IMG/VR virus record: IMGVR_UViG_3300045947_000024
Coordinates: 1 to 22,814 of that record
Origin: a virus
Reading direction: 5' to 3' (one strand)
Length of the DNA: 22,814 nt
Shown here: piece by piece, positions 3,751 through 14,019 of the stretch
How positions within the stretch are numbered: the stretch's first letter is position 1
Layout: each line of letters opens with the position of its first letter
Translations under genes and position numbers: made by a program
Notes under the pieces: model-generated
Seen by the model: only the letters and a program-made list of their open reading frames with translations
The model's database searches: none
What the model was told of the DNA's origin: nothing

Positions 3751-3953
3751 ATCGCTTTCACCGGTCCGGATTGTTCGATCTGGTCAGCAATGTCGCGCAG
3801 TATTTCTGGAATTCGTAAGGTGAGGTCCAGCGGCAGCTGCGCCGAAAATCCATTTCCGCGATCGCCGTCGAACACGACAAGTAACACGCCGGCGGCGTGC
3901 GTGTCGCGCCGGATGCGCGTGGTTTCCGGATCGTACTTTCCTGGACCGATCAT
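3747..3953 (-). CDS. hypothetical protein, 68 aa
   Basis: ATG at 3953 overlaps the integrase stop (ATGA) and its own stop overlaps the next ATG. The product begins MIGPGKYDPETTRIRRDT, has a hydrophobic strand AAGVLLVVFDGDRGNGF and a helical end (LRIPEILRDIADQIEQ). It looks like a compact alpha/beta protein. I have seen small phage proteins with GVLLxVxxGxxGxGFS followed by PxxLRxIADxIE, without a function. Being directly coupled to int, it would be made together with it. Confidence 0.66.
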   Translation of the reverse strand: MIGPGKYDPETTRIRRDTHAAGVLLVVFDGDRGNGFSAQLPLDLTLRIPEILRDIADQIEQSGPVKAI

Positions 3954-5533
3954 CGGTTTGCCTCCGCGTCCGGCAGCTGGATCGCGCCGGTCAGATTCAG
4001 ATCGCCAGACATGCGCCGATCGCCGGCCCACGCCGGTACCCACTTGGCATATCGGTTGAACGTCGTGGACCGCTGGCGATGGCCGAGCATCCAGGACACC
4101 CAGGTAACTTTTCCGCTGTCTTTCAGCAGATGCAACGTCGCAAACGTGTCGCGGCAGTCGTGGATCGTGTGGCGTTCGTCGCCGGCGCCGATCGCGTCCA
4201 TGCCGGCCACGAACACCCGTTCCGCAGTCGTCGAATCCGACAGGACACGCACGCCGCGATCGGTCCGAAACACGTAGTCGCGATCGGTCCATTTCCGGCC
4301 AGCGGCGAACGCCTGTTCGCGCTGGATCCGCTGCAGGTCGCGCAGTACCGGAATCAGTTCCGCGTCAATTTCGATCGTGCGGCGGCGTTTGCTTTTCAGC
4401 GTCACGTCGCCGTCACCGGTCGGACTGGCGGCAGCGGCAGCTGGCGAATAGTTCCGCTCGAGGATCGCCAGGCCGCGATCCAGATCGACGGTCTGCCAGC
4501 GCAGTCCGGCGGCTTCGCCGCGACGCATGCCGGTCAGCAGCAAGGTCAGAAAGTACGCATACCAGCCGCGGTACTGACCGCGCCGATCGAACGTGATCCG
4601 CTGTCGCGCCGGATCGTCGACGACCGGCAGCGGCGTCGGTTGCAGGTTCGCGCCGGCCGCTTTGCGGCTGAAATACCGGTTGTACGGCAGCGGCACGTCA
4701 TAGCGCCGGCAGACGGCGCCGAGCTCCGTCGCCGACAGCCACAGCGGCGCCGCGACCGCGGCCAGCGACGAATTCGACCAGACACGCGCGTGCAGCTGTT
4801 CGCGTGTCAGCGTGACGCGATCCAGCCGGCCGGCGCGTGTCGTGACGTCGACGCCGCTGACGCCGGTTCGCAGCCAGCTCAGAAACGCCGTCGCCTGGAC
4901 CGCGGACAGCGGATTCGGTTCCGGTTCCTCGTAGTCGCCGGCGCTGTCGTCGCGCAGTTCTTTGGTCAGCTGCAAGCACGGATTGTGCGACAGATGGCCG
5001 AACCGCACGGCCCAGCGCAGACACGACGACACGACACGGATGATCGCTTTCTGTGTCCCCCAGCCGACGCCGGCGGCGGCGCGTGTCGTGACGACCAGGA
5101 CGATCTGTTCGGTGCCGATCGCCTTGACCTTGACCGGTCCGAGCGTCGGATAAACGTGTGTTTCCAGCGTGTCGCGATACATCTTCTGCGTTGACGGTTT
5201 CTTTCGCGACACGATCGCCGTCTGCCAGCGTTCGGCGAATTGCTGGAACGTGCCAGGATCGCCGGCCAGGTCGTTCTGGTCGGCCGGTCGCGGCGGCGCG
5301 GCTTTCGGCTTCGCCGGCACGGCGGTCGCAGCTGGCGGCGGCGGCGGCAGCGCGGCGGCGTTCGCTTCGTGCCGCGCCTTTTCCGCGACGGCTTCGGCTT
5401 CGGTCGCAAAGAACAGCGCGAACGTCCGCCGTTTGCCGGTCGTCGGATCCGGACCGCGCCAGAACACGCCCCACGGGGCCGGCCGGCCGGCGACGTGCCG
5501 GACCGTCATGGTATGGACCAGCGGTCGCGCCAT
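3950..5533 (-). CDS. int: tyrosine integrase with an inserted HTH-like segment
   Basis: A 527-residue site-specific recombinase. ATG 5533 is chosen because it overlaps the upstream stop (TAATG) and begins an Arm-type domain (1-60), followed by a Pro/Ala linker (61-82) and a core-binding domain (94-195, TFQQFAERWQ). The catalytic set is visible: Arg337 (TGMRRGE), Lys382 region in a beta hairpin (LKSKRRRTIEI), His458/Arg461 (HDCRDTF), His485 (LGHRQ) and nucleophile Tyr495 (FNRYAKW). Between the first helix of the catalytic domain (about 208-235) and the TGMRRGE helix there are some 70 extra residues (236-305), with LTREQLHARVW, LSATELGAVCRRYDVPLP and NRYFSRKAAG. This resembles a stand-alone HTH-like motif seen elsewhere (LxxxVW...CRRxxIPxPxxGYWxxxxAGK). 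It probably recombines the att core at 1755-1799. Confidence 0.95.
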   Translation of the reverse strand: MARPLVHTMTVRHVAGRPAPWGVFWRGPDPTTGKRRTFALFFATEAEAVAEKARHEANAAALPPPPPAATAVPAKPKAAPPRPADQNDLAGDPGTFQQFAERWQTAIVSRKKPSTQKMYRDTLETHVYPTLGPVKVKAIGTEQIVLVVTTRAAAGVGWGTQKAIIRVVSSCLRWAVRFGHLSHNPCLQLTKELRDDSAGDYEEPEPNPLSAVQATAFLSWLRTGVSGVDVTTRAGRLDRVTLTREQLHARVWSNSSLAAVAAPLWLSATELGAVCRRYDVPLPYNRYFSRKAAGANLQPTPLPVVDDPARQRITFDRRGQYRGWYAYFLTLLLTGMRRGEAAGLRWQTVDLDRGLAILERNYSPAAAAASPTGDGDVTLKSKRRRTIEIDAELIPVLRDLQRIQREQAFAAGRKWTDRDYVFRTDRGVRVLSDSTTAERVFVAGMDAIGAGDERHTIHDCRDTFATLHLLKDSGKVTWVSWMLGHRQRSTTFNRYAKWVPAWAGDRRMSGDLNLTGAIQLPDAEANR

Positions 5534-5856
5534 TAGCGTCGCTCCGCTGGATAGCCGCGGAGCGCCAGCGCGATCCGGCGGTCGTCGTCTGACAGGTCCG
5601 CGCCGGCGGCGCGGCTGCGGTGCTGACGGTTCGCCAGCCAACGGTCGTAGTCGGATTTACGCACGAACGTTGCCCTTCCGAGGCGAGAGACCGGCAGCGG
5701 ATCGTCTGGATCGACGATCAGCCGTTGCAGCGTGCGGACGGACAGCGACGCGTACCGCGCCAGGTCGACCAGACGAAGGTACCGATCGTCGTCCGGCGGC
5801 GTCGGTAAGGCGTCCGGACTGTCGCACGATTCGCGCGGCGGCGTCGTTCGGATCAT
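5533..5856 (-). CDS. MerR-like HTH protein, probable excisionase
   Basis: A 107-residue protein with a winged HTH of the excisionase/HTH_17 type: YLRLVDLARYASLSVRTLQR, then PLPVSRLGRATFVRKSDYDRWL (residues about 26-75). Such proteins bend DNA at att sites to steer integrase toward excision, or act as regulators. The gene sits directly upstream of int and overlaps it (TAATG), which favours excisionase. The first 25 residues are polar and unstructured. ATG 5856 also overlaps a TGA in a third frame (ATGA), the operon's habit, but the upstream gene is not read in that frame here; see the regional finding. Confidence 0.85.
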   Translation of the reverse strand: MIRTTPPRESCDSPDALPTPPDDDRYLRLVDLARYASLSVRTLQRLIVDPDDPLPVSRLGRATFVRKSDYDRWLANRQHRSRAAGADLSDDDRRIALALRGYPAERR

Positions 5857-10959: not shown

Positions 10960-13900
10960 TTACCCCTCCGGTAAGTCACGCCAGCGGCGTAACAGGTCCT
11001 CGAAACTGAAGCGTTCGGAACTGGCTTCGACGTCGAACGTCGGCAGTAGATCCGGCGTCGTATGCGACACGCGGACCGTCTGGATCATGAACGTCGCGCT
11101 GAGCGCATACGGCGCCGACAGCAGATTGACCGTCACCGGTCGACCGCTGCGTGAATTGATGTCACGCGACTGGTAGCGAATCCGGATCTGCAGTTCGCGC
11201 CGTTGCTGCAGATGTGCGCGACCGCGGGCGCGAGCTTCCGCCGCCGACAGCCGGCGATCCTGGATTACATCTTCGATCACGCCGCTATGGACGCCGGCGG
11301 CGGCGGACGTGAACAGCAGCGCCACGGCAGTCTGCGCCGCCAGGTCGTCGACCTGGATCCACAGGTTCACGTCGTCGCCTTCGACGATCGGATACTGAAT
11401 CGCGCCGTCACCGGACGCCGGCACGCCGGTCAGCGCCGGCGCGACCGTGACGGTCGAGTTATAGGCGATCGACGCCGTGATCGATCCAGGTCCGGACGCC
11501 GGAATGCCGGTCAGCGTGTTTCCGCTGACGCCGGTATGCCGGACGACTTGCTGGCCATTGCCGATCACGGCCCAGCCGCCCGTCGACGGAAACGCGCCAG
11601 CGCCGGCGACGATCAGCGACGTCGCGCCGGCATTCACGCTGCCGGATGGCTGTGACAGTCCGGACGTGTCGGCGCCTGGCGGCGCGGCGCCGAGCGTCGC
11701 ATCACTGGCGGCGTCCGGTCCATAGGCCGACGTCGTGTTATCCGCGATCGTCGCGAGCAGCTGCAGCGCCGCCTGGCCGGCTTTCGTGCGGTAGAGCTTT
11801 CGCGCCGTCGTCGCCGCCGGTCCGATCGGCACGCTGGTCAGATTGACGCGCGACGCGATCGCCGTCGCCGTCGCCGGCGGCGCGGCGCCGAGGCTGGCGT
11901 CCGGCGTCGTGTCGGTCGCGGTCGTCGTCGTATTGTCGTTCAGCGTCAGCGCCAGGCCGAACGGTCCCATCGCATTCGCCCGGGTGCGGTAGACGCGGCG
12001 TGCCGTCGTGTCCGGTCCGCCGATCGGAATCGCGGTCAGCTGCACCTGGCGCTGGCCGGCCGTGTTCACACTCGGCGGCGCGACGCCGCCGCCGCCGGCG
12101 ATATCCGTGAACGACGTTGACGAATTGTTCGCGATCGTGCCGACGTGACCGTACGCCCCGCCGCCGGATCGGTAGACGCGCCGCGCCGTCGTGCCGGCCG
12201 GTCCGGTCGCGACGGACAGCGGAACCGATGTCGTCCAGCTGCCGGTCGTATTCGTCGCCGGCGGCGGTCCGCCCAGCGCCGAGAACGGCGCCGTATCCGT
12301 GTACGCCGTCGTCGTGTTATCCGCGATCCGCGTCAGAAACATCAGACCGCCGCCGCTCTGCGTGCGGTACAGCTGTCGGGCGATCGTGCCGGTCGGTCCG
12401 GTCGGAATGTGTGTCAGCGGAATGGCGTTGAACGCGGCCGTCAGCGTGATCCACGGACCGGACGGACCGGCGGTCGTCTGACCGGTCGCGGTTTCAAACG
12501 TGACCGCGTACGCGTATTCGGCCGGCGGCATCGATCCGCCAGTCGTCGGCGTGCCAGGAACCGGCCCCGTCGACGGCGGCGCCATCGCGTTTTGGATCAT
12601 CGTGACCGGCAGACTGGCCGGACTCATCAGCGATTCGCCGGACGGCGTTTGGAACGTCACGCCGTAGTAGTACGTGCCTGGCGGAATCGCGCCGCCGAAT
12701 CCTGGCGTGCCTGGCGTCGGCGCCGCCAGCGGAACCGGCGCGTCGGGGATCGTCGCGACCGCGCCGGCGCCGATCGTCGTTTCACCGGTCGCGGTCACGA
12801 ACGTGGCCGCCCAGGAATGGCAGCCAGGATCCGGACCGACGCCAAGTAGCTGACTGCCGATCGTCAGCGCCGGCGGCGGCGCGATCGTGCCGACGATCAG
12901 CGTCAGCCGCGGACCGACCAGCGATTCGCCGGCGGCGGTCACGTAACTGACCGCGTACGCGTGTTCGCCTGGCTCAATGCCGCTACCGCCGACGACCAGG
13001 CCGACCGGCGCGACGACTGGCGCGGCGCCTGGACCGACCAGCGATCCGCCGCCGCCGACCAGGACGCCGCCGTACCGGATCCGCTGCGGACCGGACATGA
13101 CGACGCCGCCGGCGGCTTCGTACCAGCTGGCGGTCGCGATCGGCATGATCGTCTCGCCTGGCCGAACTTCCGCCAGCGCCGCGGCGCCGCCGGCTTCGAC
13201 ATAGACGCGCGTGACCAGCTGTGATCCGTCGCGATCGACGACCAGATCGGTCAGCGTCGCATGCGTCGCATTGACGATCGACGGCGGCGTGACGTGCGGT
13301 TCGTCGTTGACGAACAGATGCACTTGTCGCGCGTAGTCGACGTACCAATAGCCGCCGATCCGTCGCGCCAGCGCGGTCAGCGAGGACGACAGTTCTTCGT
13401 TCGTCGTCGTGAATTCGTCCAGCGCCGGCAGACCGGCCGCGATATAGCGCGTGCCGTACCCGGGCGCGCCGGCCGTCACCAGGTCGATCGCGATCGTCGT
13501 CGCACTGGTCGCGGTCCAGCGTCGCGCCACAAGCCGTTGATTCAGCCCCCAGGTCCAGTCAATCGCGTTGACGTCGTGCCAGTAGTTCGCCGGCGTGCCG
13601 ACGTAGCCGTGACTGACGTTGAGGATCTGACCGGCGAACAGCCGATCGGCATTGTTCTTCGATCCGATCGTCACGATCACGTCGGATCCGATTTTCGGCA
13701 CGACGCCGCGGACGCGGAACGTACAGCGGTTCGGCTGATCGTTCAGCGCGTCGGTAATCGTCAGGCCGCCCACGATTTTCTCGAGCGAATCCGCCGGCAG
13801 CGTGCCGACGTGGACGCCGCCGACGCTGACGAAGCCGCGGCCGGACGTGTAGTTCGATCGCGTCGCGCCGCTGCGGGCGACGTTCGACAGCGCGTACAGC

Positions 13901-14019
13901 CAGGCGGTCGTTCCGACGACCAGCGGCCAGCCGGATCGCGTCGCGCCGGATCGCGCCAGCTTCGACCGCGCCGGCGTGATCGCTTTCTGCGTGCCGCTGA
14001 TCGCGAACGTGATCGTCAT
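10960..14019 (-). CDS. tail hub protein with inserted adhesin-like repeats
   Basis: A 1019-residue baseplate hub or tip protein after the tape measure (ATGA overlap). Residues 1-300 are hub-like: VSVGGVHVGTLPADSLEKIV, DALNDQPNRCTFRVRG, DRLFAGQILNVSHGY. Residues 300-870 hold repeats. Four units with Y/W-A-V/A-x-F-x-TA-x-G-E start near 352, 401, 450 and 501 (about 50 apart). Then four units with TAR-x-LYRT...IADNTTTAYTDT start near 546, 611, 671 and 738 (about 60-65 apart). Residues 815-890 resemble the hub motif GGWxxIGxxQxxRxTGxSGxTLTGIPASG, and 920-1019 return to hub sequence. So the repeats look inserted in a hub domain. The N terminus has two copies of ARSGATRS. It should bind the tail tip and probably contact the host. 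Confidence 0.88.
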   Translation of the reverse strand: MTITFAISGTQKAITPARSKLARSGATRSGWPLVVGTTAWLYALSNVARSGATRSNYTSGRGFVSVGGVHVGTLPADSLEKIVGGLTITDALNDQPNRCTFRVRGVVPKIGSDVIVTIGSKNNADRLFAGQILNVSHGYVGTPANYWHDVNAIDWTWGLNQRLVARRWTATSATTIAIDLVTAGAPGYGTRYIAAGLPALDEFTTTNEELSSSLTALARRIGGYWYVDYARQVHLFVNDEPHVTPPSIVNATHATLTDLVVDRDGSQLVTRVYVEAGGAAALAEVRPGETIMPIATASWYEAAGGVVMSGPQRIRYGGVLVGGGGSLVGPGAAPVVAPVGLVVGGSGIEPGEHAYAVSYVTAAGESLVGPRLTLIVGTIAPPPALTIGSQLLGVGPDPGCHSWAATFVTATGETTIGAGAVATIPDAPVPLAAPTPGTPGFGGAIPPGTYYYGVTFQTPSGESLMSPASLPVTMIQNAMAPPSTGPVPGTPTTGGSMPPAEYAYAVTFETATGQTTAGPSGPWITLTAAFNAIPLTHIPTGPTGTIARQLYRTQSGGGLMFLTRIADNTTTAYTDTAPFSALGGPPPATNTTGSWTTSVPLSVATGPAGTTARRVYRSGGGAYGHVGTIANNSSTSFTDIAGGGGVAPPSVNTAGQRQVQLTAIPIGGPDTTARRVYRTRANAMGPFGLALTLNDNTTTTATDTTPDASLGAAPPATATAIASRVNLTSVPIGPAATTARKLYRTKAGQAALQLLATIADNTTSAYGPDAASDATLGAAPPGADTSGLSQPSGSVNAGATSLIVAGAGAFPSTGGWAVIGNGQQVVRHTGVSGNTLTGIPASGPGSITASIAYNSTVTVAPALTGVPASGDGAIQYPIVEGDDVNLWIQVDDLAAQTAVALLFTSAAAGVHSGVIEDVIQDRRLSAAEARARGRAHLQQRRELQIRIRYQSRDINSRSGRPVTVNLLSAPYALSATFMIQTVRVSHTTPDLLPTFDVEASSERFSFEDLLRRWRDLPEG

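Follow-up and report, generated by a model that had tools for sequence, protein, structure and literature searches.

The classification of tyrosine recombinases relies on terminal domain additions or on minor elaborations within the catalytic fold. In the sections of the tyrosine recombinase survey cited here (Smyshlyaev et al. 2021, PMC8138268), insertions in the catalytic domain are short or beta-stranded, a helix between the core-binding and catalytic domains is also reported, and the catalytic-domain insertions of some recombinases with an arm-binding domain shape the DNA substrate; a helix-turn-helix (HTH) domain between helices A and B is not among the insertions that those sections describe. 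The integrase reported here has the catalytic pentad plus tyrosine of IntTn916/Tn1549 and of lambda-type integrases and probably also their three-domain layout, with Tn1549 as its best structural match. As far as the same sections go, however, the insertions of those enzymes are short or beta-stranded and occupy other sites, such as the one flanked by strands 2 and 3, whereas in the window integrase helices A and B enclose an entire HTH-like domain. The integron integrases likewise carry, within the catalytic fold, an insertion that is peculiar to their lineage and that they need in order to function; it is small and specific, and the cited sections do not describe it as an HTH (PMC8138268). 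Our protein is instead of phage type and has a putative arm-binding-type domain. In engineered Cre-type recombinases, zinc-finger domains inserted within the chain can make activity depend on their site (PMC11631766, Nat Biotechnol 2024). These fusions also place a DNA-binding-type domain within the recombinase chain, but they are engineered, the zinc finger being set between residues 278 and 279 by way of flexible linkers, whereas the protein discussed here is natural, its insert is HTH-like and in another loop, its DNA binding is presumed, and a dependence on a bound site would be at most a possibility. No description of such an HTH-in-recombinase fusion was found in the open-access literature searched, subscription papers being mostly beyond the scope of that search.

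The window, that is, the whole stretch of 22,814 nucleotides that we analysed, is the IMG/VR virus record IMGVR_UViG_3300045947_000024; among its phage genes are those for a portal protein and for an excisionase-like protein, and a 30-kb contig has a near-identical stretch (99.99% over 10.5 kb). The tyrosine integrase gene occupies 3950..5533, where the first-pass annotation had placed it, and lies on the minus strand (5533→3950), encoding 527 amino acids from an ATG at 5533; it was recognized from its translation, from Pfam Phage_integrase and core-binding domain matches and from PHROG integrase families. An N-terminal arm-binding-type domain (residues ~9-61, 5351..5509) was assigned from AlphaFold secondary structure by fold pattern alone, with strands at 9-12, 22-28 and 35-41 and a helix at 45-61, at moderate confidence and with no Pfam arm-binding hit. 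The core-binding (SAM-like) domain follows (residues 95-190, 4964..5251; Pfam PF22022 and PF14659, pLDDT >90), and then the first helix of the catalytic domain, helix A (residues 209-224, 4862..4909), placed by alignment with the related integrases of loci L012 and L003 and seen as helix 211-223 in the model. The remaining catalytic domain (residues 320-498, 4040..4576), supported by Pfam, alignment, AlphaFold and Foldseek, holds R337, K380, H458, R461, H485 and Y495, a set that is complete and conserved in the integrase alignment, so the earlier statement that all catalytic residues remain holds.

The Pfam Phage_integrase match of this protein (50.6 bits against a cut-off of 27.1) covers residues 326-497 and begins only at profile position 26, which indicates that the initial part of the catalytic domain has been displaced. 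In a full-length AlphaFold model, made with 44 integrases and integrase sequences only (the inserted domain being folded separately), the core-binding and catalytic folds are confident, with pLDDT mostly >90. Foldseek with the full model returned the Tn1549 integrase ahead of other solved structures and also lambda integrases, with E values down to 5.6e-10. The beta-stranded insertion between catalytic strands 2 and 3 that marks the IntTn916 and IntBPP-1 subgroups is absent, a helix (364-369) and no additional strands lying between strands 360-362 and 376-378 of the model. By sequence and predicted fold, the window protein is a phage tyrosine integrase with core-binding and catalytic domains and a putative arm-binding-type domain, and with predicted recombination activity.

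The departure from this plan lies between helix A and the first catalytic arginine. Aligned with L012, its nearest relative (51% identity across the aligned region), the window integrase shows ~97 additional residues, at roughly 225-319; against L003 (45%) the surplus is ~72. In L012, NPLTQAQADAFLAW nearly adjoins FLTLLHTGMRRGE, so that ~10 residues separate the positions equivalent to W220 and F328, compared with 107 in the window protein. Counted from residue 187 as far as the Arg box (334), the window protein has 148 residues and L003 has 79, while 96 other integrase ORFs have at most 53 (median 45), the comparison drawing on 103 integrase rows from fetched loci; L012 and 95 further integrase ORFs lack the insert. 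The first-pass annotation had described an insertion of about 70 residues (236-305) before the Arg helix; the insertion stands, but its extent was underestimated, the inserted segment being residues ~225-319 (4577..4861), absent from the close relatives, with the motif at 243-295 (4649..4807). It had also allowed that these residues might belong to the normal catalytic fold, which the AlphaFold model contradicts, as the catalytic domain closes without residues 226-314. Those residues are of low confidence, because the other rows of the alignment lack them, and the position of the insert is undefined in the full-length model.

In a tree built without the insert columns, the window integrase falls beside the insert-free L012 (98/85), with L003 as sister of both (100/100). 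The simplest reading of these three sequences is that the insert was gained in the window lineage rather than lost in the relatives. The insert is coding sequence with a GC3 of 0.85, similar to that of the remaining gene, and keeps the reading frame, codon periodicity and a hydrophobic helix pattern. No further copies of it were detected within the window beyond short chance matches, and only one virus was found with an integrase carrying an insert of the window type. The L003 integrase (L003:5001-6497) has a same-site loop of 39 residues, longer than usual and with no detectable HTH motif; we considered whether this loop might be a decayed copy of the domain and rejected the idea, as it gave no profile score.

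Within the insert, residues 243-295 match a domain of the form LxxxVWxxPxxxxAxxxgvSdxxlxKxCxxxxIPxPPRGYWAKxxaGk, here called the VW…PPRGYW domain. The initial motif query, a hand-written consensus, served only as a lead; the statistics quoted come from profiles of fetched sequences. Even when the window sequence is left out of the profile, the window segment is recovered over all 52 positions (E = 3.2e-5 for 10,000 sequences), and with a 103-sequence profile the segment scores 28 bits, the best of 20,000 shuffles of the same segment reaching 11.5. Folded with 60 family members, the segment gives a compact helical domain of HTH type (helices 244-253, 257-264, 268-277 and 287-292; pLDDT ~90 in the core), in agreement with the earlier description of it as HTH-like. 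Foldseek with this segment model returned mostly HTH DNA-binding domains, none of them significant. The insert is thus predicted to adopt an HTH fold apart from the catalytic core, although the family alignment may itself favour an HTH fold, so that we take the segment model as support rather than proof. Taken together, the profiles and the model indicate that the window insert is a divergent member of the VW…PPRGYW family. It has NRYF in place of RGYW, has also lost the near-invariant proline after VW, and forms the longest branch of the domain tree.

The same domain ends two kinds of phage endonuclease, HNH and PDDEXK_5 (PD-(D/E)XK), and is C-terminal in ankyrin proteins too, whereas in ~400-aa proteins encoded by plasmids, phages and chromosomes it is N-terminal. 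Profiles therefore agree with the first-pass annotation that the motif occurs in unrelated proteins, two other integrases among them, and its presence in endonucleases, ankyrin proteins and ~400-aa proteins disposes of the concern that it might be confined to integrases. Most known copies are terminal, whereas the window copy is nested. The sharing of the domain among HNH/PDDEXK_5 endonucleases, ankyrin proteins and ~400-aa mobile-element proteins can be seen in alignments A3 and A8 (for example L005, L008, L009, L146 and L183), and two tandem copies ~140 residues apart are present in proteins of four Bacillota genomes (L224, L225, L226 and L227) and of L180.

RWP-RK is a domain of plant and algal regulators. 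It is the most frequent Pfam look-alike (PF02042), matching 9 of 13 domain members below the cut-off of 29.3 bits with a best E of 4e-4; the window segment alone, searched against Pfam, does not match it. HTH families of Pfam give sub-threshold matches among family members, no Pfam family covers the domain, and no solved structure matches it beyond the HTH core. It is apparently an HTH-like domain family with no existing name. Clear copies were found in bacterial genomes of four phyla (1/297, 13/284, 1/301 and 13/300, ~1,180 genomes), with weak partial matches only in five more genomes of the 297-genome set; motif searches of the same genomes yielded no further integrase fusion. The viral collection was scanned with closer sub-alignments of the domain, the diverse alignment being too variable.

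Surveying integrases for the insertion, as had been proposed from the sequence, turned up two further viral cases, in integrases unrelated to that of the window. In L209 the domain occupies the same loop between helices A and B (residues 194-242), scoring 57 bits with the domain profile, and the Pfam integrase match, which at 26.3 bits falls just short of the cut-off of 27.1, starts at residue 260 with position 19 of the profile. In L185 it lies in a later catalytic-domain loop, the one that leads from the helix following the Lys region to the second catalytic Arg box. Both inserts keep RGYW. The integrases themselves are divergent: the two Arg boxes of L209 read TGMDPGT and KDIR, L185 has YDLR, and such degenerate motifs make the recombinase activity of both doubtful. 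The gene directly upstream of the L209 integrase (L212:4983-5300) encodes a 105-aa protein resembling the N-terminus of that integrase, a free-standing duplicate of its arm-binding-type region.

In the domain tree all three nested copies belong with the ~400-aa and ankyrin proteins, in a clade separate from that of the endonucleases. Within it, L185 groups with ankyrin proteins (95/86) and the window copy joins a group of proteins that have the domain at their N-terminus (87/86), while L209 lies elsewhere on a branch without a resolved position. Uniting the integrases of the window and of L209 in a single clade is rejected, though weakly (p = 0.026, with long branches). As the three inserts sit in different branches, independent captures are the simplest reading, suggested by these sequence comparisons.

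Proteins with a free-standing copy of the domain also occur beside integrases. In four loci such a protein is encoded directly downstream of an integrase gene on the same strand, with 4-78 nt between the stop-to-stop frames (L009:1490-3664, L182:73-2631, L218:1723-3450 and L103, which include plasmids, a viral contig and a chromosome). These proteins are possibly partners of the integrases. An integrase is in reach in 6 of 47 loci of the N-terminal type and in 0 of 63 of the endonuclease type, a difference that is suggestive but confounded, since the two types occur in different kinds of element. A candidate motif-integrase fusion in Sinorhizobium (H140) was rejected, the motif protein being a separate gene that starts right after the integrase stop.

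What might the nested domain do? We lean towards a complete phage integrase with a captured HTH module that would add a DNA contact beside the recombination site. On this reading a predicted HTH domain of mobile-element type has been spliced in frame into the surface loop that joins catalytic helices A and B, and from there it could touch DNA next to the core site or the attachment site, or at the junction with arm DNA; integration or excision might thereby gain in affinity, acquire a sequence preference or come to need licensing, much as happens with the zinc fingers inserted into engineered Cre-type recombinases. The HTH fold, the place of the domain in homing-type endonucleases and its recurrent fusion or adjacency to integrases make the added contact plausible, and the C-terminus of an endonuclease is usually its DNA recognition part, which also counts in favour. 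Against it count the net charge of the insert, only +6, its undefined position in the full-length model, the doubtful activity of L209 and L185 and the finding of just one virus with this integrase and insert; the lost RGYW and longest branch leave room for a relic or an altered function of the window copy. More tentatively, the protein could be a natural 'DNA-licensed' recombinase, whose nested HTH must bind its own sequence by the core site before catalysis, in a fusion made repeatedly by viruses that captured a mobile-element HTH.

The same loss of signature residues on a long branch would fit a passenger, placed in a permissive loop by illegitimate recombination and since then functionless, tolerated and drifting, drift accounting for the missing RGYW. 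The nearest relatives manage without the insert, and the loop varies in length without the domain too, as in L003. We nevertheless regard this as unlikely, given that the insert maintains its frame, codon periodicity and hydrophobic helix pattern, and that L209 has reused the same loop for a well conserved copy.

Some HTH domains act as protein interfaces, and instead of DNA the nested domain might bind an excisionase-like protein, another protomer of the integrase or some factor of the host. The window does encode a suitable candidate, a 107-aa excisionase-like HTH protein (5533..5856, minus strand; PHROG 66 excisionase, E = 5.7e-8) encoded immediately upstream, with its stop codon and the start codon of the integrase gene sharing letters in the sequence TAATG, and the absence of RGYW from the window copy would also suit a changed partner. 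L003 and L012 have homologues of this gene as well, however, so its presence does not explain the insert, and related copies of the domain are found in endonucleases; we consider protein contact improbable. Plain elongation of the loop with a chance resemblance to an HTH, for which the moderately long L003 loop with its undetectable motif might be cited, is contradicted by the shuffle control and by the far clearer copy in the same loop of L209, and can hardly be credited.

A loop of the tyrosine recombinase catalytic domain can evidently take a whole domain. If the DNA-contact reading is right, the window integrase would be a naturally occurring template for recombinases that choose their site through an inserted DNA-binding domain, so far an engineering design, and the licensed form, if true, would be the natural counterpart of the zinc-finger-dependent recombinases. 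The finding also points to a DNA-binding-like domain family common to phage homing-type endonucleases, plasmid proteins and integrases.

Two other features of the window may be recorded. The portal protein has its best match, among those listed (41%), in Stenotrophomonas phage SOVA965 (PP079418.1; L098), which also has an HNH endonuclease bearing the VW…PPRGYW domain, and this may be coincidence. A phage protein of 1019 amino acids (10960-14019, minus strand) contains, as judged by eye, several repeats of the form '…TARRxYRT…NTTTxxTDT…', possibly tail-fibre-like modules.
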